The notes beneath the pieces are model-generated. The model saw only the letters and a program-made list of their open reading frames with translations. It was not told where the DNA came from and ran no database searches. A stretch of DNA of 64,000 nucleotides, taken from contig NZ_SMFX01000001.1 of the NCBI RefSeq assembly GCF_004339085.1, positions 1,191,227-1,255,226 on the forward strand, written 5' to 3'. Source of the stretch: Thiogranum longum (GTDB lineage Bacteria > Pseudomonadota > Gammaproteobacteria > DSM-19610). The position numbers were made by a program, and so were the translations under genes. Positions 42,766 through 60,211 of the stretch are shown here, piece by piece. Within the stretch, counting starts at the first letter, position 1, and each line of letters begins with the position of its first letter.

Positions 42766-43230
42766 ATGATAGATATTGCACATATACATCCCATGCTGGT
42801 TCATTTCCCGATCGTTTTGTTCCTGGCAGCGATTGCGATTGATTTTTTTGTACTGGTAAGAAAAGGTGATCTTGCATCGAGAGATTGCCTTCCCACGGCT
42901 GGTCTGAGTGCACTGGTACTGGCCGCCCTGGCGGCGATAGTGGCTGCAACCTTTGGTGATATCGCACTGGATAAAGCCGTAGACCTCGGCTTTGACAAGG
43001 CGCCACTGGAACAGCATGAGGAGCTTGGCCTTACAACACTGTGGATATTGATTGGCCTTGCAGTATGGCAAGTGTTTTCACGCTGGCGTGGTATGCGGTT
43101 GGCTGCGACCACAGGCTGGGTGTTCTTCGCCATTTCCCTGGTGGGAACCGGGACCCTTCTGACGGCGGCCTATTTTGGTGGTGAACTGGTGTATAACCTT
43201 GGGGTTAATGTGGCGCCTGTTCACCCGTGA
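42766..43230 (+). CDS. DUF2231 membrane protein
   Basis: The 154-residue protein has four helices and starts with the DUF2231 signature IAHIHPMLVHFPIVLFLAAIAIDFFVLV, in which the His residues (HPMLVHFP) are conserved. Further helices are LPTAGLSALVLAALAAIVAATFGDIAL, LTTLWILIGLAVWQVFSRW, and TGWVFFAISLVGTGTLLTAAYFGGELVYN. The family is of unknown function; the paired His suggest haem or metal binding. AAGGAG precedes the ATG. The 3' end overlaps the convergent glucoamylase gene by 10 bp. Confidence 0.88.
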   Translation: MIDIAHIHPMLVHFPIVLFLAAIAIDFFVLVRKGDLASRDCLPTAGLSALVLAALAAIVAATFGDIALDKAVDLGFDKAPLEQHEELGLTTLWILIGLAVWQVFSRWRGMRLAATTGWVFFAISLVGTGTLLTAAYFGGELVYNLGVNVAPVHP

Positions 43231-45623
43231 AGCGCGCGGCTGACAATGTTGATCCGGTGATTGCCCTGTAGTGCGCCATCGACCTCGTCGGTTTCGATGG
43301 TAAAGTGTATTGATTCACCGGTAGCGAGCCCCTCAACCGGCAAGGTGGTTCTGTGCATGCCAAGACCGGCCTGTGTTGTGTGCAACGTCCCGGTCGTGCC
43401 TGTGTTACCGATCTGAAAGCGAATCGTGGCGGGCTGTGGCAGACACAAGCACAGCGACTCACCGAGTAGCATGGATTCAACAGGTGCCCCGGGTGACCAA
43501 ACCGCAAGATCGACTTTCGGGCGCCGGCCAGCATAGCGGCGCCATACCGTATCGATCCTGTCTACCGGATGACCGGCTGCGCGGGAATATGCCAGCTTGA
43601 TAAATTCTGCATGAGCCCACACAAGCGGCATGGCTGACCCTGTCGCACGACCGGGGTACAGCCGGTGTTTGGGAACAGGTTCACTGTCCCAGACCTGTTC
43701 CGGCAGCATCCCGCCAAGTCCTGTCATCGCAGCCATGGCGCCCAGGTATGGCAAGGGGTCGTTACCGGCCAGCAACTCGTAGTGGCCGCGTTCTCCGGTA
43801 AGCAACGGCCAGGGGCGACCGTGACCGGTGCCATCAAATGCAGACCCATCACGGTGTTCACCGTAACCGTCGCCATTGTAGCGATACCAGGCCGGACCGT
43901 TCGGTGTCTCCACCCTGAGCAGGGCATCGATAACCCGGACACTGTCAGTGACTAACGGATCGTCTGCACGCCGCAGCCCGAAACGTACCAGTTGCAGGAA
44001 GTCTGTGCTGATCTGTTCTGCTGCGGACAGCCCGGGATCCTGTAACCGGTTCTTGATCGGTAACTGCTCACTTAGCGCTTCTTCATCCATAATGACTTTC
44101 GGCGGGGCAGTGCGAATGTAATAGCCGTTAACGCCGTGTTGTCGCGCCAGCGCAGTGTTGTATACAGCGGTCCAGGACTCGATCCGGCTGTTCCAGAAGT
44201 CAGCAATGGCCAACGCCGTTTCCCTGTCCGGATCGTCCAGAAAGTCCGCGCCGCTGACCAGTGCGGCGATACAGATCGCCAGGGTGAAGGTATTGACGCC
44301 GGCATTTTCCTCCCAGCGATCCTGGTCGGTGGCAGGGCCATTATGTGCAATAAACATCAGCGCGCGGCAGACCATGTCACCGACCTCGATGCCGTCCAGG
44401 GCACCGCGCGCGGCCAGTTCTGCCGCCAGCAACACCGGGAAGGCGATCTCATCGAGTTGGGTGCCTTGCCAGAAAGGTTTCCCTCCCAGCCACTGGTTCT
44501 GGTACCAGTGGCCGTCTTCAAGCTGGGTGGCAATGAGATAGCGCAGGATTTCACGCGCCTTGTCATCGGCGCCCAGTACCAACAGTGCACCCGCACTCTC
44601 CACCAGGTCACGCGGCCAGACCAGGTGGTAACCGCCACGCTTGTTACGCGTTTCGCCCCAGGGAATACTGAGGCTGGCGATCATGGCGCCGGTAAAGATC
44701 TGGTCCTGATGAGTGCGCAGCACCATTGCCGAGATTTTCAGTTCATCGTGCAGGGCATTGGGCAGGCCCAGGTCGAGTGCACAACGCAGGCCGCAGTCTG
44801 AATGCCAGTTACGCCAATCATCTATTTGCTGCTGCCATGGGCTGCCAAAATCTCTTGGCAGGGCGGAAAGAGCGACTGTGGCAGCGGATTCGCGACTGCT
44901 GGCAAAACCGAGCGCCAGAACTGAGTGACGGGGCAGACCACCGGTCAACGCAACATTGCCGGGACCGGCCTGTTGGTAACGCCAACGCATGGAGCCGTTG
45001 CGATTGAAGTCCTGCCAGCCATCGCTGCTACCCACAAAACCGGCGCTGGCTTCCTGGATAGCGTCATGCTGATGTGCGTCCACAGCGGCCAGTGCCAGGC
45101 CAAACGGCCCCTGTTCGGCCCACAGTACACGGCGTCCACGGTAGTGTGCCGTTGCTGCATGATTATCGTAACCGGTTCCGCCCAGTCGCGGCGCCAGCAG
45201 TACAAAGGGACGCAGTGCTTTATCACCCTGCAGACGGCATTCGATCAGCAGCACATCACGCTGTGCGTCGGGTGAGATACGCAGTGTCAGCGTAAAACGC
45301 GAGTGCCGGTGTTCCAGCGTGTAGGCAGGGATGCCCGGTTCGGGCTGGCTTATGGTGTACGCATTCAGACGTTTGACCTCCACCCAGAAACCGGCGCCAT
45401 CGGCGACGATGAAGCCGAGGTCACGGATCTGCGGCAGGTCGACGCGTGGATAGTAGACTTCATTGATGATGCCGCGGCCGAGGGTAAACCACAGGCGTGA
45501 CGGGCCAAGCGAACAACCCACGGCGTTCTTGCGTCCGCCGCTCCAGGTGGGCGGTATACCGGGTTTGCCGGGAGCGTGGTCAGCGACTTCAGTTAGCCCA
45601 GCGGTGAGTGATTGCTCGTCCAT
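43221..45623 (-). CDS. GH15 glucoamylase (glucan 1,4-alpha-glucosidase)
   Basis: The 800-residue protein has an N-terminal beta-sandwich (about 30–270: NAVGCSLGPSRLWFTLGRGIINEVYYPRVDLPQIRDLGF, read in pieces) and an (alpha/alpha)6 catalytic barrel (from DQIFTGAMIASLSIPWGETRNKRGGYHLVWPRDLVESAGALL). The barrel contains the general acid region ENAGVNTFTL, LLTGERGHYELL with the catalytic base region, and a C-terminal domain (PVESMLLGESLCLCLPQPATI). This is the bacterial/archaeal GH15 layout. It has no signal peptide, so it is probably cytosolic and acts on glycogen or maltooligosaccharides to release glucose. That could feed zwf next door. Confidence 0.93.
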   Translation of the reverse strand: MDEQSLTAGLTEVADHAPGKPGIPPTWSGGRKNAVGCSLGPSRLWFTLGRGIINEVYYPRVDLPQIRDLGFIVADGAGFWVEVKRLNAYTISQPEPGIPAYTLEHRHSRFTLTLRISPDAQRDVLLIECRLQGDKALRPFVLLAPRLGGTGYDNHAATAHYRGRRVLWAEQGPFGLALAAVDAHQHDAIQEASAGFVGSSDGWQDFNRNGSMRWRYQQAGPGNVALTGGLPRHSVLALGFASSRESAATVALSALPRDFGSPWQQQIDDWRNWHSDCGLRCALDLGLPNALHDELKISAMVLRTHQDQIFTGAMIASLSIPWGETRNKRGGYHLVWPRDLVESAGALLVLGADDKAREILRYLIATQLEDGHWYQNQWLGGKPFWQGTQLDEIAFPVLLAAELAARGALDGIEVGDMVCRALMFIAHNGPATDQDRWEENAGVNTFTLAICIAALVSGADFLDDPDRETALAIADFWNSRIESWTAVYNTALARQHGVNGYYIRTAPPKVIMDEEALSEQLPIKNRLQDPGLSAAEQISTDFLQLVRFGLRRADDPLVTDSVRVIDALLRVETPNGPAWYRYNGDGYGEHRDGSAFDGTGHGRPWPLLTGERGHYELLAGNDPLPYLGAMAAMTGLGGMLPEQVWDSEPVPKHRLYPGRATGSAMPLVWAHAEFIKLAYSRAAGHPVDRIDTVWRRYAGRRPKVDLAVWSPGAPVESMLLGESLCLCLPQPATIRFQIGNTGTTGTLHTTQAGLGMHRTTLPVEGLATGESIHFTIETDEVDGALQGNHRINIVSRALHG

Positions 45624-45695: not shown

Positions 45696-47048
45696 TCATG
45701 GCAACATCGATTCGAGGTCAGATGCGCTGGTTGGATAGGTAAAGGTGGCGTAAGCGAGATCCGTAGCCTTGAGGCCGGTGCGCATGGCAAGCCCGAACAG
45801 GTTGATGATTTCGACGGCACCGGGACCGACTACGTGGGCGCCTAACACGCGCTCGCTCCCATCCTCGACCAGCACCTTGAATGCATAGCACGATTCGTTT
45901 ATGCGTCGTGCACTGTACCAGCCCGGAACAGTCTCGTGCTTTACGCGATACCTGAGTCCGTGTGCTTTCGCCTCTGCTTCCAGCAGACCGACCCGTGCGA
46001 GCACCGGTTCCGTGAACACCGCGGTCGGTATGCCTGTGTAGTCGACTGTGGCGTGATTCCCTTCCAGCAGATTGGCGGCAGCAGCGCCGGCTTCCAGTGC
46101 AGCAACAGGCGTAAGCGGCAATGGCGGGGCGCCGGCATCGCCGACGACATAAACCGCCGGATTGGACGTGCTCTGAAAAAAGTCGTTGCGCAAAATACGC
46201 AGCCCCTCGTGAGCGATATTCGCAGCTTCGAGGTCGAGATCGCTAACCGCCGGCACACGTCCCCCGCTGTGGATGACATTGACCGCTTCAAAAACAGCCT
46301 TACCATCCGGGCTGGCGGCGCGAACGGTGTAACCGTCGCTGGTTTGTTCAACTGCCCTGACTTCGTGATTGCACAGCACTCTGATCCCCAGCGCCTGAGT
46401 TCGTTCGACGAGTGCAGCGACAAGGTCCGGATCAAACTGCTTGAGTGGATGTGGGCCGCGGTTGAGGATAACGACATCGGCGCCCGCGCGCGCGGCCACA
46501 TGCGCGAATTCGAAGCCGATAAAGCCGCCGCCGACAAATACCAGCCGCTGTGGCAGCGTCTCGAGTTCAAGGAAGGCGTCACTCAACATCAGGTGCCCGG
46601 CACCATCGACGGGTAGTGGCGCCGGTTCCGCACCGGCTGCAATGACGATATGCTTTGCATCCAGGGTCTCGGCGCCGATCTGAACCTGCCGGATGCCTGT
46701 AAAGCAGGCTTTGCCGTGAAAGGTCGAGATACCCTGTTCCTGCAACATCTGCTCGCGCCGCGCGGGCACCGGGTCGGTGAACGAGCGCTTGAAGCGTTGC
46801 AATGCCGCCCAGTCGATGCTCGCTTTCCCCTGAATGACATTCACATCCGCCATGCGGGCTATACCGTCCATGACTTCGGCAGCTGCAACCAGCATTTTCT
46901 TCGGGTCGCAGCCGCGCAGTGCACAGGTGCCGCCATAGGGACGATGGTCGACAACGGCGACGGACCAGCCGGCCTTACGGCAGTGTGTCGCGCTCACAGT
47001 AGCCGCGGTGCCGCTGCCAATAACGACAAGATCGAATTGTTGTGCCAT
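45696..47048 (-). CDS. FAD-dependent pyridine nucleotide-disulfide oxidoreductase (class I-like)
   Basis: The 450-residue flavoprotein has the FAD-binding motif VVIGSGTAATVSATHCRKAGWSVAV, the redox-active disulfide GGTCALRGCDPKKML (C-x4-C), a second dinucleotide fold RLVFVGGGFIGFEFAHVAARAGADVVIL, and the FAD ribityl site AVYVVGDAGA. The C-terminal interface, which in glutathione reductase carries the His-Glu base as HPT..E, reads FTYPTSASDLESML, so the catalytic His is a Tyr. The enzyme may use another acceptor or mechanism. GGGAGGG precedes the ATG. It lies downstream of nuoN on the same strand across a 217-bp gap. Confidence 0.9.
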   Translation of the reverse strand: MAQQFDLVVIGSGTAATVSATHCRKAGWSVAVVDHRPYGGTCALRGCDPKKMLVAAAEVMDGIARMADVNVIQGKASIDWAALQRFKRSFTDPVPARREQMLQEQGISTFHGKACFTGIRQVQIGAETLDAKHIVIAAGAEPAPLPVDGAGHLMLSDAFLELETLPQRLVFVGGGFIGFEFAHVAARAGADVVILNRGPHPLKQFDPDLVAALVERTQALGIRVLCNHEVRAVEQTSDGYTVRAASPDGKAVFEAVNVIHSGGRVPAVSDLDLEAANIAHEGLRILRNDFFQSTSNPAVYVVGDAGAPPLPLTPVAALEAGAAAANLLEGNHATVDYTGIPTAVFTEPVLARVGLLEAEAKAHGLRYRVKHETVPGWYSARRINESCYAFKVLVEDGSERVLGAHVVGPGAVEIINLFGLAMRTGLKATDLAYATFTYPTSASDLESMLP

Positions 47049-47265: not shown

Positions 47266-48651
47266 TCAGACAAGCTGTCCGAGCAGACTCTGTGCCGCCA
47301 GCCCGATGCCCAATGTAAAGATGAAAGCAATGATCCACACCAGTCTTATCAATGGCATTATCGGTTCAGCGGCTGGTACAGGAGGTGGCTCCGTTGCATC
47401 GCCGCCTTGCTGATACATCGGCACCACAACGCGCAGGTAGACCGCCAGTGACAACACACTGTTGAGAATTGCCACTACCGCCAGCCAGGTGAACCCCGCG
47501 TCGATCGAGGCACCGAACAACATAAATTTGCCGACGAAACCTGCCAGCGGCGGGATGCCGGCCAGGGAAAGCAGAAACACCACCATCGCCACGCTCATGG
47601 CCACTTTTTTGCGCCCGATGTCAGAGAACGTATCGAGCGTTCGGCCGGTGCACATAACCACAGTAAAAGCACCCAGATTCATGGCGGCGTAGGCGGCGGC
47701 AAAAACAACGAGGGATTCGAACGCAAGCGTGCTGGTTCCAACAGCGACAATGCCGAGCAGAAAATAACCGGCCTGTGCAATGGAGGAGTAGGCCAGCAGT
47801 CGCACAACATTGTTCTGCACCAGCGCAGCCAGATAGCCGTAGGTCATGGTCAGTACGGAAACCACGGCAATGACCAGGGGCCAACCTGTGTTCAGGGGTA
47901 AATCGCGTACCACTTGCGCGATAGCAAAGATAGCGCCTATCTTGGGAACCACTGACAGATAAGCGGCGATCGACACGGGTGCACCTTCATACGCATCCGG
48001 CGCCCAGAAATGAAACGGTACCAGTGAAGCCTTGTAACCCAGTCCGACGATGACGCCAATCAGGCCAACCGCGGCGATCACCGGTTTTGTATCAAGGCGG
48101 GCCAGATCACTGAGCAGTGTCGAACCGGTACCGCCAAACCAGTAGCTGAGGCCAAAGATCATGATGGCGCCGGTGACCGAAGCAAACACGAAAAACTTCA
48201 TTGAGGCTTCAGTAGCGATAGCGTTACGCAGCCAGGCGACCAGCACAAAGGACGCCAGGCCGGAGAGCAATATACCCAGCACCAGCAGCATGGTGTCACC
48301 GGCACTGGCCAGTACCAGTGAACCCAGCGTGACCAGGCTGACCAGTACATAGACGGTACCTTCGCGATCACTGCCCGCGAGTTCTGCGCGTACCAGCAGA
48401 ACGGATAACGCTGTCGCAGGTAACAGGATGAGCTTGGCCCAGACACTCAAGGTATCAATGCGATAGGTGCCACTGAACACGCTGGTGTCTGTGCCCAGCA
48501 GTGGCAGGGTCAGGCCGGTGGCGAGCAGCAGGCCGATCAGTGTGACGGCCAGTGCAACACGGGGCAGGCGCAGCATCTCGGCCACCAGCGCGAAGACGAT
48601 GGTCAGCAGGAGCGTGATCTCGGGGATCAGCAGGGCAAGATCGTCTGCCAT
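47266..48651 (-). CDS. nuoN: NuoN-like subunit of a complex I-like system
   Basis: The 461-residue protein is an antiporter-type complex I subunit of about 14 helices. The central Lys region is GLGYKASLVPFHFWAPDAYEGAPVSIAAYLSVVPKIGAI, and the distal FVGKFMLFGASIDAG carries the terminal Lys. The helix with the proton-channel Glu is LGILLSGLASFVLVAWL-like, and is weaker than in NuoL/M. It is the last gene of the operon running from 57251. Its ATG lies in the stop of nuoM (TGATG-type overlap), so the two are translation-coupled. Confidence 0.92.
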   Translation of the reverse strand: MADDLALLIPEITLLLTIVFALVAEMLRLPRVALAVTLIGLLLATGLTLPLLGTDTSVFSGTYRIDTLSVWAKLILLPATALSVLLVRAELAGSDREGTVYVLVSLVTLGSLVLASAGDTMLLVLGILLSGLASFVLVAWLRNAIATEASMKFFVFASVTGAIMIFGLSYWFGGTGSTLLSDLARLDTKPVIAAVGLIGVIVGLGYKASLVPFHFWAPDAYEGAPVSIAAYLSVVPKIGAIFAIAQVVRDLPLNTGWPLVIAVVSVLTMTYGYLAALVQNNVVRLLAYSSIAQAGYFLLGIVAVGTSTLAFESLVVFAAAYAAMNLGAFTVVMCTGRTLDTFSDIGRKKVAMSVAMVVFLLSLAGIPPLAGFVGKFMLFGASIDAGFTWLAVVAILNSVLSLAVYLRVVVPMYQQGGDATEPPPVPAAEPIMPLIRLVWIIAFIFTLGIGLAAQSLLGQLV

Positions 48652-50120
48652 CAGAACTGCAACGCGGCCGTCGTCTTGTGAATGACATCCAGCACCCAGG
48701 CCGGTGCAATGCCTACCGCCACGATCAGGATCAACAGTGGGCAGATGGCGAGTACTTCGCGGGTATTCAGGTCACCCATGCCGGCCCACTGTTCGCGCGG
48801 TTCGCCAAGGAAGACCTTGCCAATCGCTCTCAGGTACAGGCCGGCGGTAATGACGATACCGAGAATAACGATCACGGCAGCAGGTTCGACCCGCAGTGTC
48901 GCCAGGAAGATCTGGAACTCGGCGGGAAAGTGCGCCAGCCCCGGCAGGCCCAGCGAGGCGAAGGCAGCCAGCACAAAGGACCAGCCGAGTACCGGTACGA
49001 TTTTAAGCAGGCCGCCGAACCGGTCCATCTCGCGCGTGTGGGCGCGGTCCTGCAACATACCGACCAGCATGAACAGGGCGCCGGTGACCAGCCCGTGACT
49101 GACCATCTGCAATACCGAACCGTCCATGGCCACGGCGCGCACTGCAGGATCGACAGCCAGTGCGGCGATGGCAACACCAACGATGATATAGCCCATATGA
49201 TTGACCGAGGTATAGGCCACCAGGCGTTTGAGGTCAGTTTGTGCCAGCGCGGCAAAGGCGCCGTAGATGGCACTGATGACACCGAACACCAGGATGACAA
49301 TACCTGCCTCCCGAAACGCATCCGGTGTCATCTGCAGGGCAAAACGTATCAGGCCGTAGGTGCCGAATTTCAACATCACCCCGGCGAGGATGACACTGCC
49401 GGCGGCAGGCGCCTGAACGTGCGCAGCCGGCAGCCAGGTATGGAACGGAAACACCGGCGTCTTGACCGCGAACGTGAACAGCATGGCCACCAGTGCCAGC
49501 ATGGCCGCGCTGCCGCTTAACGGTGGACTATCGATCCAGACGCGCATATCAAAGGTATGCGGGTCGCTGCCCAGGTACAGCCCGAGGATGGCGAGTAATA
49601 GCGGCAGGCTGCCCAGCAGGGTATAGATGAAGAACATCAGCGCGGCACGCTGGCGGTCTTCGTGACCCCAGCCGGCAATCATGAAGTACATCGATACCAG
49701 TGACACTTCAAAGAACACATAGAACAGGATCGCATCCAGTGCCGTGAAGGCACCGATCGAGGCAGTTTCCAGCAGCAACATCAACACGACATAGGCGTGT
49801 GGCCGTTCCTTCACTTTGGCTGAATAAATAAAGCTCAGGAAGAACAGCAGCGCACTCAGCAGCACCAGTGGCAGACTGATGCCGTCCACGCCCACGCGGT
49901 AGGCCGCGCCGATGGCCGGCATCCACTCAAACTGTTCGAGCTGGGCAAAACCGCTTGCGTTGACGCCGCGCGACCACATCCACAGAGCCCCCACGAGTGT
50001 TAGCCCGCTGGTACTGATGCCGATGGTATGCACGACCGGCGCCGGCGCCTTGCGCAAGGCCATAACGAGCAGCGCGCCGAGAAGCGGCAGGAACAGGGTG
50101 ATGGACACAATGGGAAGCAC
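48651..50120 (-). CDS. nuoM: NuoM-like subunit of a complex I-like system
   Basis: The 489-residue antiporter-type subunit keeps the expected channel residues: Glu in FYVFFEVSLVSMYFMIAGWG, Lys in FAVKTPVFPFHTWLPAAHVQAPAAGSVILAGVMLKFGTYGL, the His-containing half-channel, and a Glu in LAHFPAEFQIFLATL on the broken helix. GLAHFPAEF matches the FVGEF of canonical NuoM. It moves protons in complex I. The start lies 15 bp after the nuoL stop and its own stop overlaps nuoN. Nothing suggests decay. Confidence 0.94.
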   Translation of the reverse strand: MLPIVSITLFLPLLGALLVMALRKAPAPVVHTIGISTSGLTLVGALWMWSRGVNASGFAQLEQFEWMPAIGAAYRVGVDGISLPLVLLSALLFFLSFIYSAKVKERPHAYVVLMLLLETASIGAFTALDAILFYVFFEVSLVSMYFMIAGWGHEDRQRAALMFFIYTLLGSLPLLLAILGLYLGSDPHTFDMRVWIDSPPLSGSAAMLALVAMLFTFAVKTPVFPFHTWLPAAHVQAPAAGSVILAGVMLKFGTYGLIRFALQMTPDAFREAGIVILVFGVISAIYGAFAALAQTDLKRLVAYTSVNHMGYIIVGVAIAALAVDPAVRAVAMDGSVLQMVSHGLVTGALFMLVGMLQDRAHTREMDRFGGLLKIVPVLGWSFVLAAFASLGLPGLAHFPAEFQIFLATLRVEPAAVIVILGIVITAGLYLRAIGKVFLGEPREQWAGMGDLNTREVLAICPLLILIVAVGIAPAWVLDVIHKTTAALQF

Positions 50121-50135: not shown

Positions 50136-51953
50136 TCAATAAACCAGTAAAGTCACCAGCAGGGTGACGAGAATCAGTGCCGTGCCGACCACGGTGATGG
50201 CCATTTCGCGATGGATCAGGCCGCTCTGCAGGGTACGGGCGCGCTGGCCGAGTGCGACCGTGCCGCGCACCAGTGAAAAGATCAGGCCGTCGATGCCCTG
50301 GTCGTCACTGCGGCGTATGGTACGGCCCATGGCGAGGCCTGACCGGCCCACGGCAAGTACCGTGTTATACAGGCCGCGTTCCAGTTGTTCGCAGCTGCGT
50401 GCCATGGCGAGGGCGGGGCGCACCATCCAGGTATCGAAACCGCCGGCAATGGCAAAGCCCTGTTGCGCCCAGGGCAGCAGCGGTCCCAGCAGACGTCGCC
50501 CGGCGATGAACCAGCCCAGCGTCAGACCACTCAGTGCAGCGCCCAGTCCAAGGATCCGGGCAAGGGTGTTTTCGGACAATGCAGTGTGCAGCAGGGTCTC
50601 AATGGACGGGAAGGCGGCGCCGAGAATGACGGCCAGCGTAACCAGTCCCGCCAGTCCGGCGCCCATCCAGCCAAGCCCTGCGATATTGCGATGCTGACGA
50701 TCGCCACGCCACAGGATGCGTAACGCGCGGGCCATGTAGGCACCGGTCAGCAGGGTCCCGGCCAGCGCGAACGAGGCCAGCAGCCAGGCGTTGGGTGAAG
50801 ACAGCGCAGCGGCAATGATGGCGTCCTTGGAAAAGAAACCGCTCAGCGGCGGGATGCCGGCCAGCGCCAGTGCCGCCAGTGCAAAACCGGAAAATACCAG
50901 CGGCCGGTCACGACCGGCGCCTTTCAGCTCAGTCAGCATGGTGCTTTCACGACTATGCTGGAACACACCGGCACCGAGGAACAGGGAACTCTTGATCGCG
51001 GCGTGCGCGATCAGGTGCAACAGTGCTGCCAACGGCACACCGGCACCTACTGCGACCAGCATCAAGCCGTACTGACTTGAGGTCGACGCAGCGAGCAGGC
51101 GCTTGAGGTCACGCTCGCCCAGCGCGATCATCCCGGTCACAACGGTGGTAATGCCGCCGATGATAGCCGCCACCAGCAGCGTTTCCGCGGGCAGCATCGG
51201 TGCCGTGCGGATCAGCAGAATAGCGCCGGCCGCGACCAGGGTGGCTGAGTGCAGCAGTGCCGACACCGGTGTGGGTCCGGCCATGGCGCGTTGCAGCCAG
51301 TCGTGCAGCGGGGTTTGCGCTGACTTGCCCATGGCGGCGACCAGCAATAAAAGCCCGGCCACGACTGCGGTGTTACCCCCGGTGTTCAGCGTAACGGCGA
51401 TATCGCTGCTGCCGGCATGGGCAATGAGGATGAACACCGCGATATACAGTCCAAGGTCAGCGCTGCGGGTAGTCAGGAAGGCACGGGTGGCGGCGGACCG
51501 GACGCCCGGTCGCCGGTACCAGAAACCGATCAACAGATAACTGCTCAGGCCGATGAGTTCCCACGCTGCGAGCAGCAGGATCCAGTCACCGGCGAGTACC
51601 AGCGTCTGCATGGCCGAGACAAACAGCAGCATGGTGGCAAAGAAACGGATCTTTTCGTTGTCCTGTTTCATGTAGCCGGCGGCGTAGACCAGCACCAGGC
51701 TGCTGACGACAGCAACCAGTGTGGAAAGCAGCGCGGTCAGGGGTGTGGCGACCAGGCGTAGTGGCATGTCCGGCAGGCCGGGCAGGATCAGCTCGCTACT
51801 CATGCCGTTAAAGGCATTGGACAGTAATCCGATGCTGGCGAGCAGACCGACCGCAGCGCCCAGTAACGCCAGCGCAGCGGGTAAACGCCGCAGTAACAGG
51901 ATCAACACCATCATGGACAGTGGCGCCAGGATGGCGATAGCAATCAGGTTCAT
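50136..51953 (-). CDS. nuoL: NuoL-like subunit of a complex I-like system
   Basis: The 605-residue subunit has the antiporter core with Glu in LLAAWELIGLSSYLLIGFWY, Lys in VAAMGKSAQTPLHDWLQRAMAGPTPVSALLHSATL, and the distal Lys in PPLSGFFSKDAIIAAAL. The C-terminal 150 residues include a long amphipathic stretch and a final helix (TVVGTALILVTLLVTLLVY), consistent with the lateral helix of NuoL. It overlaps nuoK by 4 bp. All three proton-pathway residues I looked for are kept, so ion pumping or antiport is plausible even though the electron-input arm is altered. Confidence 0.94.
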   Translation of the reverse strand: MNLIAIAILAPLSMMVLILLLRRLPAALALLGAAVGLLASIGLLSNAFNGMSSELILPGLPDMPLRLVATPLTALLSTLVAVVSSLVLVYAAGYMKQDNEKIRFFATMLLFVSAMQTLVLAGDWILLLAAWELIGLSSYLLIGFWYRRPGVRSAATRAFLTTRSADLGLYIAVFILIAHAGSSDIAVTLNTGGNTAVVAGLLLLVAAMGKSAQTPLHDWLQRAMAGPTPVSALLHSATLVAAGAILLIRTAPMLPAETLLVAAIIGGITTVVTGMIALGERDLKRLLAASTSSQYGLMLVAVGAGVPLAALLHLIAHAAIKSSLFLGAGVFQHSRESTMLTELKGAGRDRPLVFSGFALAALALAGIPPLSGFFSKDAIIAAALSSPNAWLLASFALAGTLLTGAYMARALRILWRGDRQHRNIAGLGWMGAGLAGLVTLAVILGAAFPSIETLLHTALSENTLARILGLGAALSGLTLGWFIAGRRLLGPLLPWAQQGFAIAGGFDTWMVRPALAMARSCEQLERGLYNTVLAVGRSGLAMGRTIRRSDDQGIDGLIFSLVRGTVALGQRARTLQSGLIHREMAITVVGTALILVTLLVTLLVY

Positions 51954-52264
51954 CCTTTCAACTCCGCGGCTTCTTCCATTTCCACCGAACCTTTGGCGCG
52001 GAAGCGCGCTATGGCAATGCCGAAGCCCACCGCCATCTCGATCGCCATCACCGTCATAATGATCAGTACAAACATCTGCCCGGCCGGGTTATCCGGGTGA
52101 AGGTAACGCCAGAACGCCACCAGGTTGACCATGGCCGCGGCAAGCATCAGTTCTATACCCATCATGATCATCACCAGGTTGGTCTGTGACAGGGCGCCGT
52201 AGACGCCGACCCCGAACAATGCCGCGCCGGTCATCAGGGCGAGAAGGAGTTCAATGCTCATCGT
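51950..52264 (-). CDS. nuoK: NuoK-like subunit of a complex I-like system
   Basis: The 104-residue protein has three helices and both essential acidic residues: Glu in IMMGIELMLAAAMVNLVAFWRY and Glu in VMAIEMAVGFGIAIARFRAKG. This is the normal NuoK pattern. I use the ATG at 52264 (MSIELLLALM); a longer frame to 52300 reads back into nuoJ without a ribosome site. It overlaps nuoJ by 14 bp and nuoL by 4 bp, so translation of the membrane subunits is tightly coupled. Confidence 0.93.
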   Translation of the reverse strand, partial: TMSIELLLALMTGAALFGVGVYGALSQTNLVMIMMGIELMLAAAMVNLVAFWRYLHPDNPAGQMFVLIIMTVMAIEMAVGFGIAIARFRAKGSVEMEEAAELKG

Positions 52265-52820
52265 TTGCCGGTCTCTTTGATGCCTTACCCTTACCGTCAT
52301 TCCGGCGTATGCCGGAATCCAGGGGTTTGTTTATGGACACCGCCGTGGCTGCAATCATCGCAGTGAGGATGGTGATACCGGCGGTTTCAAAAATCAGCAT
52401 CGATCGTCCCAGCAGCTCAAGGCCGAGATCGACCGTCTGTTGCGCAGCGCCCGGTGCAGCGTTGGCCACCGGTCCCCAGTCCACAAACACAGCGACGGCT
52501 ACAGCAGCGAGAAAGGAAACGATACCGGTGCCCAGTGACAGGCGTTTCTGGTGGGTCATCTCCATCTCGCCGAGACCTCCGGGATCCATCATGAACATCA
52601 CCATAAAAATGGCCATGATGCTCATCTCCGTGGCCATCATCATGATCTGCAATACGCCGAGAAACTCTGCCTGCATAGTCAGGAACAGGGCGCCAAGCGC
52701 GGTCTGTGAGAACAGCAGCGCCAGCGCAGAGCGCACCATCGAAAACGTGCGGAACACAACAACCCCGAACCACACCGCGGCGAGCCCGAAGAAACCGATA
52801 AAGAACATTTGCGCCGTCAT
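52251..52820 (-). CDS. nuoJ: NuoJ-like subunit, Met-rich
   Basis: The 189-residue protein has five helices. In canonical NuoJ the third helix reads VYAGAIMVLFLFV; here the matching segment is QIMMMATEMSIMAIFMVMFMMDPGG, unusually rich in Met (ten in 25 residues) with a Glu where a Gly is usual. The loop after it (LGEMEMTHQK) also has Met and His. The C-terminal ends in RNDGKGKASKRPANDEH. The start at 52820 (MTAQMFF) shares bases with the nuoH stop. The Met pattern could favour soft-metal contacts, or be structural only. Confidence 0.85.
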   Translation of the reverse strand: MTAQMFFIGFFGLAAVWFGVVVFRTFSMVRSALALLFSQTALGALFLTMQAEFLGVLQIMMMATEMSIMAIFMVMFMMDPGGLGEMEMTHQKRLSLGTGIVSFLAAVAVAVFVDWGPVANAAPGAAQQTVDLGLELLGRSMLIFETAGITILTAMIAATAVSINKPLDSGIRRNDGKGKASKRPANDEH

Positions 52821-53716
52821 TATGGAAACACCAGTACGAGGACACCGACGAGGAAGATATTCAGCAGCGCCAGCGGGATGCCCAGCTTCCAGCACCAGGC
52901 CAGCAGGTGTGCTTCGCGGATGCGCGGCATCATGCGTCCGGCCAGCAGCATGGTGGCGGTCACTGCCAGTATCTTGATGGCACTCCAGGCCCAGGGCGGT
53001 AGCCACGGACCCTGCCATCCACCGAGGTAGAAAATCACCGTGGCTGCCGCCAGGGTAATAATCAACGCCAGGCGTCCAAGCCGGAACACCGCCAGTCGGA
53101 CGCCGGTATATTCGGCTTCCACGCCACCGGCCAGTTCACCTTTCGCCGTTGGCAGGTCAAACGGTGGCAGAAACGCCAGTGCCATGGCCGCGATGAAAAA
53201 CAGCACAAAGCCCAGTGGTTGATAGAGGACATTCCACAACTGCGCCTGTGAGATCACGATTTGTGTGGTAAATAATGACTCGGCACGCATCGCAACCGCA
53301 GTAATCGGCATCACAATGAGCATGGAATAGGCAATAAGCTGGCCGAGAAAACGCCAGCCACCGACCATGGCATAGGCGCCGTCCGGCCCCCAGCCGGCCA
53401 TCAGCAGGGCCACCAGTACATAGACCAGCGCGGCGTTGATGAACAGTGCGCCGGTGGCAAGGTCGGTGATGATCAGGTTCGGTGTCAGCGGTACGACGGC
53501 AGCCGCGAGTACTGCCGAGAGCAACAGCAGCACCGGGGCGACCTCGAAGAAAATCCGGTCGGGTTTGCGCGTCAGGATAGATTCCCGCCCCAGCAGGGCG
53601 ATGCCGGCAAGTACCGGCGCGGCCAGTCGAAAACGTCCGCACGTTGTCCAGTTTTCCAGGACAGCGACCAGGTAGGCGCCGAATGCCAGTAACAGCAGCA
53701 GGAGCACGGTCGTCAT
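52820..53716 (-). CDS. nuoH: NuoH-like subunit with altered quinone-site motif
   Basis: The 298-residue protein aligns with NuoH (E. coli 325), especially in the loop and helix after [37 protein letters not shown], and [12 protein letters not shown]…[23 protein letters not shown]. The canonical AETNRTPFDLPEGE is changed to [16 protein letters not shown], so two acidic residues near the quinone pocket are missing (E of AETNR and E of LPEGE). The N-terminus is short. In complex I this subunit joins NuoB/NuoD and forms the quinone channel. It overlaps the fusion gene by 4 bp. Confidence 0.9.
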
Positions 53717-55656
53717 TGCCGCACCTCCCAGGGAGACAGGTCGAGGGAACCGACGGCGACCAGCGCATCACCCAGTTCCTGTTGTTCGGTCAGCGGGGCA
53801 ATGAGGGTGAGGTGGTGCGTGGATGGGGTCTCCAGTTGTGCCGCAGTGACCTGCCCCGTCTCCAGTGTCAGCTGCAGGCGGGCCGGGCCGCGGGGTGTTT
53901 CTACGCTGGCTTCACTGCTCCCGGATGCTTCACCGGGAAGAGGGGGTGTCGGTACCGCGATGGCGCCAGCGGATTCAATGAGCATCAGGCTGTGAGTGAT
54001 TTCATCAAGGCGGACGTGCAGGCGGGCCAGGGCATCGCCTTCTTTACGCCTGGCTGGTGTGAACCCCAAGGTGATAAAGGTCTTATCCGTATTGCGTGCA
54101 TCGTCACTGATTCCAGAGGCGCGCGCCACGGGACCGCGCAGTGCCGTATCCTGCGCCAGCCGGCCGATACCGGCTATTCGGGATTTCAGTAAAGGCGTTC
54201 GTTGCAGGCGTTTCATCAGGGACTGTATGGCTGGTCTCAGCGCCGCGACCTGTTTCATGTCGGCATGCCGGAAATCCAGTTGCAGTACTGCTGCGCGTTG
54301 CACCAGCCAGTCGAAACCGGTTTGTTGCCCAAACAGCGCCAGCCAGCCCAGGTGGCTCACGATACGTTCCCGTTCCAGCGCGCCGGCACGCGCCTGTGCC
54401 GTTTCGGCAGGCACCTTTTCGCCAGCGGCCTTTTCCAGTGCCTGGCAGGCAAGGAGCCGGTAGGCAACGGGTGCCAGTGGGTCCAGGTCGGCCATTCTTT
54501 CGATGAAGTGCGTGGCGTCCATCGGTGAGTGGCAGAGCAGTTCCCGGTTTCCGTTCAACGCGAGTGCTTCGGACCCGGCGACAGTATCTCCGTCGAGTGT
54601 CAGTGTCAGCAGTAATCCGCCGGGCAGGCCCGGGAAAAAAGGCCCGAAGGGGGCATCAATCCATTCCATCTGCAGGCCATCACCACTGCGTGGCAGGTCT
54701 TTGGTAACGTCGATCATGGACATGAAGCCCATGTCATCGTGATCCATGGCGCTATGGTTCATGTGTTGATGATCGTGCGCCGGTTCAGCCGTTATCTCGC
54801 GGGGTTCCAGGTCCATCCCGCACTTGGGACAGGAACCGGGTTCACTCTGTACGACTTCCGGGTGCATGGGACAGGTGTATTCGACTGCCGCATCGTGATC
54901 CATATGTGAATGATCGTGCGCCGGTTCAGCCTGTATCTCGCGGGGTTCCAGGTCCATCCCGCACTTGGGACAGGAGCCGGGTTCACTCTGTACGACTTCC
55001 GGGTGCATGGGGCAGGTATATTCGACCGCTGCGTCGTGATCCATGTGGTGATAGTCATGAGCTGGTGTCACCTGCGTATCCGCACTGGCATCAGCCTGTG
55101 CTTGATCCGCATGCGTATGCCCAACGCCGGCCTGGACTTCGCGTGGCACCAGGAACATGCCGCACTTCGGGCAGGACCCCGGTTCGTCCCGGACGACTTC
55201 CGGATGCATCGGGCAGGTATATTCGATACGGACTTGCAGTACCGGCGCGTCGAAGTCCGATACGTCCGGGCGGAAGGCGCTTTCGGAAAATACATGGCGC
55301 AGTTGACGCACACCTTCGAGCAAATTCTGCTGGGAAAGCCCCGTTGCAACGTCAGCGCCTGGTAAAGGCGACAGGTCTTCTGTACCCAGTACGAACAACG
55401 CCCGCGGGCGGACCATCTGGGCATAAACTACGGCTGCGGCTTCCCGCAACGCCGGGGGAATAGGGCCGACCACCAGCAGCACACTGGCGTGGCGCGGGCT
55501 GGCGACCCGCTGCAGTCCGGCCGCTTCAATGTCCAGGCCGTGGGCGCGGGCAATGTCGGGACCGGGAATGAGGAATACGTTGAGATCACGGGCCATCGCG
55601 CCAGCAACCAGCCGCCGTAATCCGGACAGTTTTCCCTGTCGGGCGCCGGTAATCAT
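53713..55656 (-). CDS. NuoB-like – triple CPMHPE metal-binding – NuoD-like fusion protein
   Basis: This 647-residue protein has three parts. Residues 1–140 resemble NuoB/hydrogenase small subunits ([36 protein letters not shown]) but have no Cys, so the ligands of cluster N2 are missing. Residues 145–310 hold three modules YTCPMHPEV… [10 protein letters not shown] (Cys at 148/162/165, 215/229/232, 262/276/279) linked by His-rich segments ([33 protein letters not shown]). Residues 315–647 resemble NuoD/49-kDa ([72 protein letters not shown]). It sits between nuoA and nuoH, exactly where nuoB, C and D would be. Metal handling by a complex I-like enzyme is inferred. Confidence 0.85.
54771..55052. 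repeat. Two tandem 141-bp units encoding the second and third CPMHPE modules
   Basis: The block beginning GATCGTGCGCCGGTTCAGCC at 54771 is repeated at 54912, 141 bp (47 codons) later, with only scattered differences over most of its length. Each unit encodes one CPMHPE/CPKCGM module plus its His-rich linker. The first module, upstream in the protein, is more diverged. Confidence 0.9.
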
Positions 55657-56019
55657 TTATTGTCTCCGCAGCGCACCCTGACTCCAGCCGTAGAGTAATC
55701 CCAGAAACAGAATGGCCAGAAAGACGCCCATGTCGAGCAGGGCAACCAGTCCTTCCTGCTTGTATACCACTGCCCAGGGGTACATGTAGGCCATTTCCAT
55801 ATCGAAGGATAAAAACAGTAACGCGTAGCCATAGTAGCGGGCGTGGTAACGCACCCAGACCGGGTCGCGTGACAACTGGCCAGCGGTTGCGGGTACCTCC
55901 TTGCCCGGTTCCTTGCGCGCTTTGCCAAACGCGCTGGCAAGGGCATACAGACTGAGGACAAAGCCGATGGTGCCGACTGTCAGGCCCAGCAGTAATCCGT
56001 ATTCTTCAAGGGTAGTCAT
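55657..56019 (-). CDS. nuoA: NuoA-like subunit of a complex I-like system
   Basis: The 120-residue membrane protein has three helices. The diagnostic second half of helix 1/loop and helix 2 reads WVRYHARYYGYALLFLSFDMEMAYMYPWAVVYKQEGLVALLDMGVFLAILFLGLLYGW (read in pieces), matching NuoA RYH.RYY..ALLF..FD.E..F.YPWA. The loop before it (KEVPATAGQLSRDP) takes the place of the canonical GLLPTG…R.RF loop and lacks its Cys. The stop touches the start of the fusion gene. In complex I it lines the quinone cavity with NuoH and NuoJ. Confidence 0.92.
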   Translation of the reverse strand: MTTLEEYGLLLGLTVGTIGFVLSLYALASAFGKARKEPGKEVPATAGQLSRDPVWVRYHARYYGYALLFLSFDMEMAYMYPWAVVYKQEGLVALLDMGVFLAILFLGLLYGWSQGALRRQ

Positions 56020-56066: not shown

Positions 56067-57251
56067 CTACAGGTAACGCAAATAAAACAGGTACAGTCGC
56101 TCAAACAGGTTCTTGACGGTGATGAGTTTGCGCGAATGACGCGGAAAAATATTCCAGAATGGCGGCTTATCATCGTTGGCGGCATGCAGCCATATCGCAT
56201 CGTTCTCCATGTTCAAAATGCAGGAAAGTTCGAAGCGATAGGTGTGTGTGGGTTCTTTGCCTTTTAACACAGCGCGCATATTTTTAGCCGCGGCTTGTGA
56301 GCGCAATTGCGCCATGTGAGCCTGGTGAGGCACCCAGGGCGGTGGATTTTCATGATTACTGCAATCACCGGCAGCGAAAACCTTGTCCAGGCCCTGTACA
56401 CAGCCGAACCTGTCGACCGCGATATGACCGCCAACGGAGACCGGCAGACAGGATTGCTGTACCCAGTCTGGTGCTCTGATGCCGGGTGTAAACAGGATCA
56501 GGTCCGCTTTTCTGAAAGTGCCGTCTACGTCTCGCATACCGCCATCGATAAATTCCGCCGGCTCATAGCCGTAGTCGAGGATAATGTCGCGCTCGAGCAG
56601 CCGATCGGTGATGGCGCCGGTTTCCCCCGGCGCAATGTCCGGGGAAAAAAGATGAATTTCGAATTTGTCGCGCAGGCCCTTTTCTTTCAGGGCATAGTCA
56701 AACAGGCAGGCGCACTCGTACATCTGGCCACCGCGGCCGGCAACAAAGCCATCGAGTTTATTGAGCTTGAAGCCCACGTAGATAATACCTTCCTGTAGGG
56801 TGTTCAGCCGTTGCATGAAGGCATTCATGTCATCCGGCCCGCCGCAGGGTGAAAAGGTATGTATGCCTGTGCCGGGAATATCATCGACCCGGAACGCCGG
56901 ACCTGTGCCTATGAACAGGGCATCGTTGGTGTAACGACCCTGTGTGGTCAGTACAGTTCTTCCACCATCCTGAACATCGACTACCTGGTCATCTATAAAA
57001 TGTATGTTGCGACGCCACAGCCAGGGTCGGATATCAAGCGTGATGCCATCCTTCGTTTTTTTGCCGGTGATGAATTCAGGTATGGCCGGGAAATAGATGA
57101 ACTGGCCATTGCCAATAACGGTAATGTCGTAGCGTGAATAAATCCGTCGCACAAAGAATGCAAAAACCGGGAAGACCGGTAGTGATAACAGGTAACCGAT
57201 AAAAAACAGGGAGGCGAAACCATTGCCGATGATGACGATCTTTGTCTTCAT
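56067..57251 (-). CDS. Membrane-associated flavoprotein, SQR/NDH-2 family
   Basis: The 394-residue protein has the FAD motif IVIIGNGFASLFFIGYLL, IGTGPAF, the second fold region, and VFAAGDCSNHENPP for the FAD ribityl site. The C-terminus (WNIFPRHSRKLITVKNLFERLYLFYLRYL) is amphipathic, like the membrane anchors of sulfide:quinone reductases and NDH-2. CACLFDYALKEKG resembles the loop of sulfide dehydrogenases. The helix after the first FAD motif is unusually long and hydrophobic. It is the first gene of the complex I-like operon, 47 bp before nuoA, which makes it a good candidate for the electron-input partner (inference). The donor is unknown. Confidence 0.85.
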   Translation of the reverse strand: MKTKIVIIGNGFASLFFIGYLLSLPVFPVFAFFVRRIYSRYDITVIGNGQFIYFPAIPEFITGKKTKDGITLDIRPWLWRRNIHFIDDQVVDVQDGGRTVLTTQGRYTNDALFIGTGPAFRVDDIPGTGIHTFSPCGGPDDMNAFMQRLNTLQEGIIYVGFKLNKLDGFVAGRGGQMYECACLFDYALKEKGLRDKFEIHLFSPDIAPGETGAITDRLLERDIILDYGYEPAEFIDGGMRDVDGTFRKADLILFTPGIRAPDWVQQSCLPVSVGGHIAVDRFGCVQGLDKVFAAGDCSNHENPPPWVPHQAHMAQLRSQAAAKNMRAVLKGKEPTHTYRFELSCILNMENDAIWLHAANDDKPPFWNIFPRHSRKLITVKNLFERLYLFYLRYL

Positions 57252-57468: not shown

Positions 57469-57966
57469 ATGAGTGTTGAATACACAAAAGTCAGGGATCC
57501 GGTCTGTGACATGATGGTGGATCCGCGTGAGTTGTCTATCGACTACCTGGGGATGCATTTTTCATTTTGCTCCGAGCAATGCAAACAGCGGTTTTTAGAT
57601 AACCCTAATCTGTATATAGGTACAGCCGGGCATAAATCCCCCAGACAGGAAGGCCGGGTAGTGCTTAAGCGACGGCGCCTGAAACTGTCGGAGCCACTGT
57701 CAGCTGAAGCCAGAGAGGGATTGATTAAACAGCTCCAGTCGATGATGGGTATCAAGCGCGTCGATGTTGAAGGCGATATCGTCGATATTACTTACGACTT
57801 GCTCGAAGCAACAGAAGCGCAGATCGAGGAGACGATTGCGCAATCCGGTGCAGTCCTCGGACAGAGTCTGGCGAGACGTCTGAGTCGGGGGTTTGTAAAG
57901 TATCTTGAGGAAACAGAGATTGAAAACCTTGAGGTAAAGCCGCAACCTCACCATCATGGTCATTAG
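57469..57966 (+). CDS. YHS-domain metal-binding protein with a C-terminal HMA-like part
   Basis: The 165-residue protein starts with a YHS/TRASH domain (VRDPVCDMMVDPRELSI… SFCSEQCKQRFLDNP, residues 8–45) whose Cys residues bind metal. Residues about 65–130 look like a ferredoxin-like HMA fold without the CxxC (LQSMMGIKRVDVEGDIVDITYDLLEATEAQIEETIAQSG, read in pieces). The C-terminus ends in a His cluster (PQPHHHGH). This resembles copper chaperones in which a Cys-rich domain is joined to an HMA domain. It follows a MerR-type promoter and overlaps the sensor-kinase gene convergently by 4 bp. A chaperone or sensor role is inferred. Confidence 0.85.
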   Translation: MSVEYTKVRDPVCDMMVDPRELSIDYLGMHFSFCSEQCKQRFLDNPNLYIGTAGHKSPRQEGRVVLKRRRLKLSEPLSAEAREGLIKQLQSMMGIKRVDVEGDIVDITYDLLEATEAQIEETIAQSGAVLGQSLARRLSRGFVKYLEETEIENLEVKPQPHHHGH

Positions 57967-59348
57967 CCTGTGGGTAGTATGACCTGAAAACGGGTAATGC
58001 CTTCGGACGAAGTTACACTGACGCTGCCGCCATGCGCTTCAACGATGGATTTAACGATGGCCAATCCCAGTCCGGTACCACCCTCCTGCCGGGCCGGGTC
58101 GACACGATAGAACCGATCGAACAATTTGGGGAGGTGTTCGGGTGATATTGACGGGCCAGGGTTTTCTATTACGATATAGGCTTCGTTCATAGCTGTAGCA
58201 CTGAGTTCTATCCGTACAGTAGCTCCCGGAGATGCGTGGCGTATCGCATTGGAAAGCAGGTTTCCCAATGCACGTTGCAGCATGAGTCTATCACCCGGTA
58301 CCTTGGCAGTGCCTTCAAGTTTCAGTTTAACCCCATGCTCTTCGGCCCATGCCTCGTAAAACTCGAACAGAGTCTCCACTTCACTTGCCAGATCCACCTC
58401 AGCTGTTTTCATGTCGTCAGGGTCATTGTCTGCTTTTGCAAGGAAAAGCATGTCGTTGATCATCTGGGCCATGTGCTCGTATTCTTCGATATTCGAGAAG
58501 AGAATCTCCTTGTATTCCTCGATCGTACGTGGCTTCGAAAGGGCGACCTGGGTTTGGGTCATCATGTTGGTCACCGGCGTACGCAGATCATGCGCAATAT
58601 CGGCAGAAAAATTGGAAAGGCGACGAAAATCTTCTTCCATGCGCTCAAGCATTTCATTGAACGAGACAGCAAGATCGGTCAGTTCACGCGGCACCGTTTC
58701 CGGCGACAGACGCGTATTCAGTTCATTCGCGGAGATGTGGCGTATTTGGGTAATTATTTGATGCAGTGGTGCGTGTCCGTAGCGAACCACGACCCAGCCC
58801 ATGAGGCTGGTAATGGCGAAACCACTGGCGATCATGAGCCACAGAGTATGGCGAAAGCGTTTGAGAAACTGCAGGTGAAAGTCTATAGGCAGTGCTGCAA
58901 CGATGGTGTAGACCTGATTACCTTGTGCGGTATTGTCACGCATCTTGCGAACCAGGATATGAAAGCGATGTTCGCCATCGGTCCATTCCTGTATGTTGGC
59001 ATCTTTGGCTGTCTTTACTGCAATGCCTTCAAGCATCGACAGATCCGGCCCGGAACTGGAATAGTGTACTTTTCCGTTCTGGTCGGTTATGTAAAGTGAT
59101 GCGTCGTGATGCCCGACCAGTAGATCACCAAATCGCTGTCTGAGGAGGGAAGGGTCATCATTTTCGGTGCTTGAAACTATTGCCTGGTGAACCGCCTGGG
59201 CCATGGTTTCGAGTTCTTTGGCATCTTCCATGGCGAAGTGGTGTTTGATCGAGCTTTCGATCAGCCAGCCAAACCCGGAGAACACGATAATGGCCACGAC
59301 ACCGAATAAAACGGTGAGTCGTAGCGTTAGTGAATGTGGGCGCCGCAT
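57963..59348 (-). CDS. Heavy-metal sensor histidine kinase (CusS/CopS type)
   Basis: The 461-residue kinase has two membrane helices (LTVLFGVVAIIVFSGFGWLIE near the start and LWLMIASGFAITSLMGWVVV around residue 175), flanking a periplasmic sensor domain of about 135 residues. It then has HAMP (APLHQIITQIRHISANELNTRL), the phospho-acceptor in FSADIAHDLRTPVTNM, the N box LGNLLSNAIRHAS, and the G boxes DRFYRVDPARQEGGTGLGLAIV. This layout and the phrase around the H box are those of the CusS/CopS family, which senses periplasmic copper or silver. ATG at 59348 is 10 bp after the regulator stop. Adjacent copA/copB support copper. Confidence 0.93.
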   Translation of the reverse strand: MRRPHSLTLRLTVLFGVVAIIVFSGFGWLIESSIKHHFAMEDAKELETMAQAVHQAIVSSTENDDPSLLRQRFGDLLVGHHDASLYITDQNGKVHYSSSGPDLSMLEGIAVKTAKDANIQEWTDGEHRFHILVRKMRDNTAQGNQVYTIVAALPIDFHLQFLKRFRHTLWLMIASGFAITSLMGWVVVRYGHAPLHQIITQIRHISANELNTRLSPETVPRELTDLAVSFNEMLERMEEDFRRLSNFSADIAHDLRTPVTNMMTQTQVALSKPRTIEEYKEILFSNIEEYEHMAQMINDMLFLAKADNDPDDMKTAEVDLASEVETLFEFYEAWAEEHGVKLKLEGTAKVPGDRLMLQRALGNLLSNAIRHASPGATVRIELSATAMNEAYIVIENPGPSISPEHLPKLFDRFYRVDPARQEGGTGLGLAIVKSIVEAHGGSVSVTSSEGITRFQVILPTG

Positions 59349-59358
59349 TGTCCCTGAT

Positions 59359-60042
59359 TCAGCTCGCGTCCTGAAGGTCAAGTATGTAGCCCATGCCGCG
59401 ACGGGTATGGATCAACCTCGGTTCAAAATTCTCGTCTATCTTGGCGCGGAGTCGACGAATCGCGACATCAATGACGTTGGTGTCGCTGTCGAAGTTCATG
59501 TCCCAGACCTGTGATGCAATCAGGGAACGGGGTAGTACTTCGCCCTGCCGTCTGACCAGCAGTTCCAGCAGTGCAAATTCCTTGGCGGTGAGTTGTATAT
59601 TCTGCCCTGCACGTGTTGCGCATCTTCGCAATAAATCGAGTTCGAGATCGGCAACGCTCAACCTCGTTTCATTTACCGGCGTTGCACCGCGCCGCAGCAG
59701 GGTTCGAACCCGTGCCAGCAGTTCGGAGAAGGCGAATGGTTTGACCAGATAGTCGTCGGCACCGAGTTCCAGTCCCTTGACGCGGTCATCAACACTGTCT
59801 CGTGCGGTAAGAAACAGTACCGGCACATTTCTGCCAGCCTCGCGAAGTGATTTGAGAATTTTCCAGCCATCGATGTCAGGCAGCATGACATCAAGGATCA
59901 GCAGGTCAAAATCTTCAGTCATGGCCTGATGATGGCCATCCAGCCCATTACGTGCGAGGTCAACGATAAATCCGGCCTCACTGAGGCCCTGGTGGAGGTA
60001 ATCGCCAATTTTGCTTTCGTCTTCGACGATCAGGAGTTTCAT
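59359..60042 (-). CDS. OmpR-family response regulator (CusR/CopR type)
   Basis: The 227-residue regulator has a receiver domain ([24 protein letters not shown], phospho-Asp in [15 protein letters not shown], Lys in [15 protein letters not shown]) and an OmpR-type winged helix ([37 protein letters not shown], and [11 protein letters not shown]). It would bind a cop box and activate copA/copB; such a box lies 144 bp upstream, between the divergent genes. I use the ATG at 60042 (MKLLIVEDE); the longer frame to 60186 adds 48 residues that fit no receiver domain. The kinase gene follows. Confidence 0.95.
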
Positions 60043-60173
60043 CTGTAATCCGCGCAAATACCCGTTGTTATAAAAAGGTCTTCCAGATATTCCGGCCGTT
60101 GTGACGGAACATTGCCAATCTTTCTGCCAGGCCGGGTTAGTCGCCATATTAAGCAGGGTTGAATGGCGGGAAG

Positions 60174-60211
60174 ATGACACAACCATGACAAAATTGTAAT
60201 GGTTGTGTCAT
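60174..60211. promoter_or_regulatory. Cop box nested in a 13-bp palindrome
   Basis: ATGACACAACCAT (60174–60186) and ATGGTTGTGTCAT (60199–60211) are a perfect 13-bp inverted repeat with 12 bases between. Within it, TGACA (60186–60190), four bases and TGTAAT (60195–60200) match the cop box TGACAnnnnTnTnAT bound by CopR/CusR. It lies between the regulator gene and copA, so it may serve both. Confidence 0.82.

Follow-up and report, generated by a model that had tools for sequence, protein, structure and literature searches.

No electron source is known for the complex I-like clusters of copper islands, as far as the consulted part of PMC8233155 goes. The closest described case, a published complex I-like cassette with a link to copper, is NuoADHJKL of Marinobacter atlanticus, which according to the same portion of that article lies inside a copper-resistance region and is co-regulated with it; the seven genes given there are six nuo-like ones and a hypothetical one, with no flavoprotein listed, and the donor is left open (PMC8233155). 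Among flavoproteins, the closest described enzyme is the type VI SqrF of Thiocapsa roseopersicina, characterized in the excerpt of PMC9666304 used here by residues Cys121, Val331, Cys332, Ile333 and Phe366 and by a single terminal helix. The window, that is the whole stretch of 64,000 nucleotides of Thiogranum longum that was analysed, contains a complex I-like gene run that begins with a flavoprotein gene. We consider this flavoprotein to be probably a SqrF-like, monotopic membrane quinone reductase, which would work on its own and is placed in a copper island before the complex I-like module.

The ORF list places the flavoprotein gene exactly at the coordinates of Table 1, with an ATG start and 394 aa, and its product scores 42.9 bits with the Pfam family Pyr_redox_2, whose cut-off is 26.1. 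On one strand the order is flavoprotein, nuoA, a HMBD/NuoB-NuoD-like fusion, then nuoH, J, K, L, M and N; none of the NuoE, NuoF and NuoG families was recognized among the scanned window proteins. The 47-bp gap between the flavoprotein stop and nuoA carries a purine-rich GAGGA ahead of the nuoA ATG, and a simple scan of it listed no promoter- or terminator-like site. The flavoprotein had been described in the earlier note as leading an operon: it does head a series of genes that leads into nuoA on one strand, and the spacing suggests co-transcription. That it should also be the only redox flavoprotein of the operon is doubtful, because a glutathione-reductase/MerA-type flavoprotein comes after nuoN, 217 bp further on and on the same strand. 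Glucoamylase-like GH15 genes follow nuoN within about 12 bp (alignment bounds) at three other loci (L114, L116, L117), with G6PDH nearby.

Table 1. Features of the flavoprotein locus, in window coordinates.
Feature	Position	Strand	Remark
Flavoprotein gene, probably SqrF-like, 394 aa	56067..57251	-	ATG ORF, Pfam match
nuoA-like	55657..56019	-	47 bp downstream of flavoprotein stop
Fusion: NuoB-like N-terminus without N2 cysteines, three HMBD, partial NuoD-like C-terminus	53713..55656	-	
nuoH-like	52820..53716	-	
nuoJ-like	52251..52827	-	start chosen inside listed ORF 52251-53018
nuoK-like	51950..52265	-	start chosen inside listed ORF 51950-52300
nuoL-like	50136..51953	-	
nuoM-like	48651..50120	-	
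nuoN-like	47266..48651	-	
Glutathione-reductase/MerA-type (disulfide-reductase-type) flavoprotein	45696..47048	-	between nuoN and GH15
Glucoamylase-like GH15 gene	43221..45623	-	
YHS-domain protein	57469..57966	+	divergent from flavoprotein
CusS-like copper/silver sensor kinase	57963..59381	-	
CusR-like response regulator	59359..60186	-	

Upstream of the flavoprotein are the divergent YHS protein, CusS and CusR, followed by a copper oxidase, CopB and a cupredoxin. The link to copper sensing recurs, because the order CusS homologue, flavoprotein, nuoA, all on one strand and with the kinase directly upstream of the flavoprotein, is also found at loci L033 and L002; CusR may act on the flavoprotein gene. 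Homologues of the YHS protein adjoin the flavoprotein at three other loci (L010, L051, L052).

Several lines of evidence bear on the class of the flavoprotein. With a 45-member profile searched against solved structures, SQRs rank highest, those of Acidianus with 82 bits, of Aquifex with 79 and of A. ferrooxidans with 72, and NDH-2 reaches 65 bits. The AlphaFold2 model (pLDDT 90.7, pTM 0.89) has the predicted fold of an SQR, with an FAD-binding first Rossmann domain, and the best Foldseek matches are the SQRs of Aquifex and A. ferrooxidans (TMq 0.82-0.84), ahead of human SQR (0.77-0.79) and FCSD (0.75-0.76). In the alignment Cys136 occupies the column of the FAD-side Cys128 of A. ferrooxidans, Cys344 that of the C-terminal catalytic Cys356, and Phe383, at least 90% conserved in 45 rows, that of the quinone-site Phe394; the second sulfur cysteine of Type I/V SQRs (Cys160/Cys178) is absent, its column being taken by Arg173, which is invariant in the same 45 rows. 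Cys136, Cys297 and Cys344 are present in 65/65 alignment rows, Cys180 in 61/65 and Cys182 in 57/65. A tree of 48 proteins recovers the family (14/14 rows, support 100/99) and joins it, with moderate support (92/86) and with long branches flagged by the program, to a sister group of 14 relatives, apart from the SqrA-like, FCSD and E. coli NDH-2 rows; the sequence of T. roseopersicina SqrF is not among the rows. Membership in SqrA is ruled out by the tree and by Arg173 at the Cys160 column, and membership in FCSD by the separate clade and by the Pfam scan, in which the FCSD-flav_bind domain PF09242 was not found in the flavoprotein.

The sister-group relatives have cysteines at or near positions 121 and 332, and one of them (L019) has Val331, Ile333 and Phe366 exactly on the SqrF numbers, as counted by hand from the C-terminus; we call these relatives SqrF-like because their residue numbering matches that of SqrF in the consulted part of PMC9666304. 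In the flavoprotein itself, which can be compared with SqrF here by published numbering only, the equivalents of the pattern are Cys136, Cys344, Ile345 and Phe383, with Ser343 in the place of Val331. The identity first proposed from the sequence, SQR/NDH-2-like, holds, and of the two kinds it is SQR that the profile, the fold, the cysteines and the tree all favour: the protein groups with SqrF-like relatives, and not with SqrA, FCSD or NDH-2.

The FAD motif, G9-N-G-F-A-S14, is followed by a hydrophobic stretch, whose best 19-mer, starting at residue 16, has a mean Kyte-Doolittle value of 2.18. This stretch had been taken in the earlier note for an unusually long hydrophobic helix; the hydrophobicity is confirmed, but in place of a long helix two short ones are modelled (residues 12-21 and 29-38), separated by a proline-containing loop, with pLDDT of 61-65 for residues 21-40. 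A single transmembrane helix after the FAD motif is rejected, in view of the broken helix and the low confidence of the model in this region. What distinguishes the family is a hydrophobic insert of 13 residues at about positions 20-32, present in 14/14 of the family rows shown and in 0/34 of the others. At the other end, the apparent membrane attachment of the C-terminus remains likely, and in the model the C-terminal helix spans residues 375-393.

A scan of the genome contigs of the collection identified 61 loci of the family, whose full-length members are 58-88% identical; outside this tight family identity falls to about 34%. Going by record titles, most hosts are Acidithiobacillus or Gammaproteobacteria that oxidise sulfur, with a few others besides. 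When plasmids were searched with the flavoprotein, 5 records matched, all below 60% identity and none in the tight family. NCBIfam gives only matches far below cut-off (SQR_III, 33 bits vs 525), and in our literature searches no paper on the family was recognized. Two MAGs, HyVt-444 (L034/L037) and HyVt-418 (L040/L085), have two copies each, one leading a nuo cluster and one elsewhere; in HyVt-418 the copy leading the cluster is L040, and L085, an incomplete copy that shares 84% identity with the flavoprotein of the window, lies beside sulfur genes. Within 5 kb, and counting the 60 of 61 loci with a called ORF (all except L064), sulfur-type genes (cysteine desulfurase-type, Cys/Met-PLP, ArsR-rhodanese or TauE) occur in 13/60 loci and metal genes (MerR, HMBD P-type ATPase or YHS) in 15/60. 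The sulfur-type neighbours, of which the ArsR-rhodanese proteins are regulators and the TauE proteins exporters, are concentrated in one deep acidophile branch (at L079 a Cys/Met enzyme gene starts 81 bp after the flavoprotein); outside that branch only L070 and L085 have them.

These features can be assembled into a mechanism for the SqrF-like enzyme. The substrate would be some form of reduced sulfur, either sulfide or a persulfide or thiol from copper-stressed cysteine pools, and would bind close to Cys344 and Cys136 with the help of Arg173. From there electrons would reach FAD and, in turn, a quinone whose channel Ile345 and Phe383 line; the N-terminal insert and the C-terminal helix would lie on the membrane face. 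The enzyme would feed the quinone pool alone, any tie to the pump being through that pool. Such an enzyme could be useful where sulfide and copper stress meet, and might sometimes be wired into copper islands, under copper control. Several observations temper this interpretation: Arg173 replaces the second sulfur cysteine of SqrA, and sulfide oxidation by the family is a prediction; the SQR_III score and the change of Val331 to Ser343 do not favour it; the sulfur-gene neighbours belong mostly to one acidophile branch, and the grouping with the SqrF-like relatives is moderate and involves long branches. Finally, the co-occurrence with the module described below would also suit a joint role.

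We have studied the relationship between the flavoprotein and the module both by adjacency and by genome content. In the collection scan nuoA comes directly after the flavoprotein, as it does in the window, in 6/61 loci (L033, L035, L037, L039, L040, L048), five loci (L037, L052, L063, L071, L078) having less than 600 bp of sequence downstream, although L037 still shows nuoA; at L054 a nuo cluster is near the flavoprotein but on the opposite strand. In the class sample, among the 10/13 clusters with visible upstream sequence (L116, L119 and L120 being cut off), the flavoprotein is adjacent in 3/10 (window, L118, L122) and not in 7/10. On plasmids, 12 matches (H6-H17) span at least 72% of the HMBD protein; in the 6/12 examined (two Paracoccus, Roseovarius, Rubrobacter, Nitratireductor, Thioclava) nuoA-HMBD-HJKLMN is complete in 6/6 and the flavoprotein is present in 0/6. 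The plasmid-borne nuoA-HMBD-HJKLMN is a mobile complex I-like unit. On these plasmids, from Alphaproteobacteria and an actinobacterium (L105-L110, with Rubrobacter as L108), transposases or copper genes are often near the module. On the family tree, adjacency to nuo is no more clustered than in shuffles (144/500 as low). It needs 6 changes, at least 3 of them forced by well-supported branches, and no member of the deep acidophile branch is adjacent to nuo, so that the idea of an ancestor already adjacent to nuo is rejected.

Genome content was scored, with nuoH standing for the module, in 369 genomes within one class, and the p-values that follow ignore phylogeny and vent-like habitat. The flavoprotein is carried by 14 genomes, the module by 13 and both by 9 (Fisher p 4e-12); by taxonomic family, the flavoprotein is in 10, the module in 10 and both in 7. 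In the nine genomes with both, the genes are adjacent in 3 and apart in 5, the view in the ninth (G204) being limited by contig ends. Among copA+ genomes the flavoprotein is in 8/12 nuo+ versus 4/107 nuo-, and among soxB+ copA+ genomes in 7/8 versus 4/51 (p 7e-6). Co-occurrence thus exceeds what copper-resistance or sulfur-oxidation markers alone explain, and its strength keeps a functional link between flavoprotein and module open.

A possibility to which we give a minor but real chance, and which is compatible with a SqrF-like enzyme, is that the flavoprotein is a passenger with respect to the module, both being cargo that sulfur oxidisers of metal-rich habitats carry in metal islands, where the two merely become neighbours. 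Both go with copA (12/14 flavoprotein carriers and 12/13 module carriers, against a background of 119/369), and the scattered adjacency on the family tree points the same way; against it, the association persists within soxB+ copA+ genomes and by family, neither comparison being fully corrected for phylogeny or habitat. An NDH-2-like role, as a reductase of quinone by NAD(P)H or of cupric ions and so a guard against copper, is unlikely. E. coli NDH-2 has cupric reductase activity, the setting is a copper island, bacterial NDH-2 structures resemble the model (TMq 0.72-0.77), and the PHQAHMAQ region is as much like NDH-2 as SQR. However, the GxGxxG NADH motif, looked for in the second Rossmann region, is absent, the SQR-type cysteines are invariant in the family and missing from E. 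coli NDH-2 at those columns, and membership in NDH-2 is ruled out by these motifs and by the tree.

Quite unlikely is a copper-induced sulfur-to-quinone-to-ion-pump pair, in which a SqrF-like enzyme would load a local quinone pool that the N2-less HMBD module uses or relieves, the two forming a functional unit and not one complex. In the fusion protein, some 52 positions of the NuoB-like N-terminus can be aligned with NuoB/MbhJ (best E 7.8e-7), the NuoD-like part covers only positions 55-155 of the 271-position Pfam model, and the number of HMBD copies, counted by a simple motif, ranges among loci from 0 to 5. In the first 140 residues of the NuoB-like part there are 0 cysteines in the window and in 3/5 other sequences, the last two having 1 and 2; the ligands of the N2 cluster are thus gone, and there would be no canonical cluster to receive a flavoprotein's electrons. 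Very improbable is the role first proposed for the flavoprotein, that of an electron-input subunit of the complex I-like machine replacing NuoEFG: it heads the run 47 bp from nuoA and co-occurs with the module, but the module is often complete without it on plasmids and in the class sample, it is more often apart than adjacent in the genomes with both, most orthologues are elsewhere than before nuoA, those of deep branches stand alone, and the N2 cysteines are lost.

Since this kind of flavoprotein usually stands alone in sulfur bacteria that tolerate metals, and here stands before the pump, an independent quinone reducer is likelier than a built-in electron-input part, and the alternative already offered in the earlier note, independent reduction of what is presumably quinone, fits better than a subunit role. 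These results remove the easy answer to the donor question, the sole candidate flavoprotein here being optional and probably an independent SqrF-like enzyme, while the strong co-occurrence makes the two a testable gene pair; if the sulfur-quinone-pump pair were true, it would name the electron source of a widespread complex I-like machine. The family, with its insert and without the second sulfur cysteine, would represent a separate branch of enzymes from bioleaching and vent bacteria that are likely to reduce quinone.

In comparison with known systems, the flavoprotein resembles SqrF, as presented in the consulted part of PMC9666304, in its FAD-side Cys, its C-terminal Cys followed by Ile, its quinone-site Phe, its one main C-terminal helix (accompanied in the model by a 4-residue helix) and its grouping on the tree with the clade bearing SqrF's numbering; it differs in the hydrophobic insert after the FAD motif, the Ser before the C-terminal Cys, the extra Cys180/182 and the metal-island context. 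With Type I SQRs (A. ferrooxidans and Aquifex; 3t31, 3hyw) it shares the fold and the equivalents of Cys128, Cys356 and Phe394, whereas Arg173 in place of Cys160, a shorter C-terminus and an identity of about 21% set it apart. The two-Rossmann flavoprotein fold is shared with NDH-2 (4nwz, 5na1; E. coli Ndh), which differs in its NADH motif, its lack of SQR-type cysteines and its separate position on the tree. Finally, the window run is like the Marinobacter atlanticus cassette in that complex I-like genes lie in a copper-resistance setting, but is led by a flavoprotein, for which the consulted text on Marinobacter lists no counterpart (PMC8233155).
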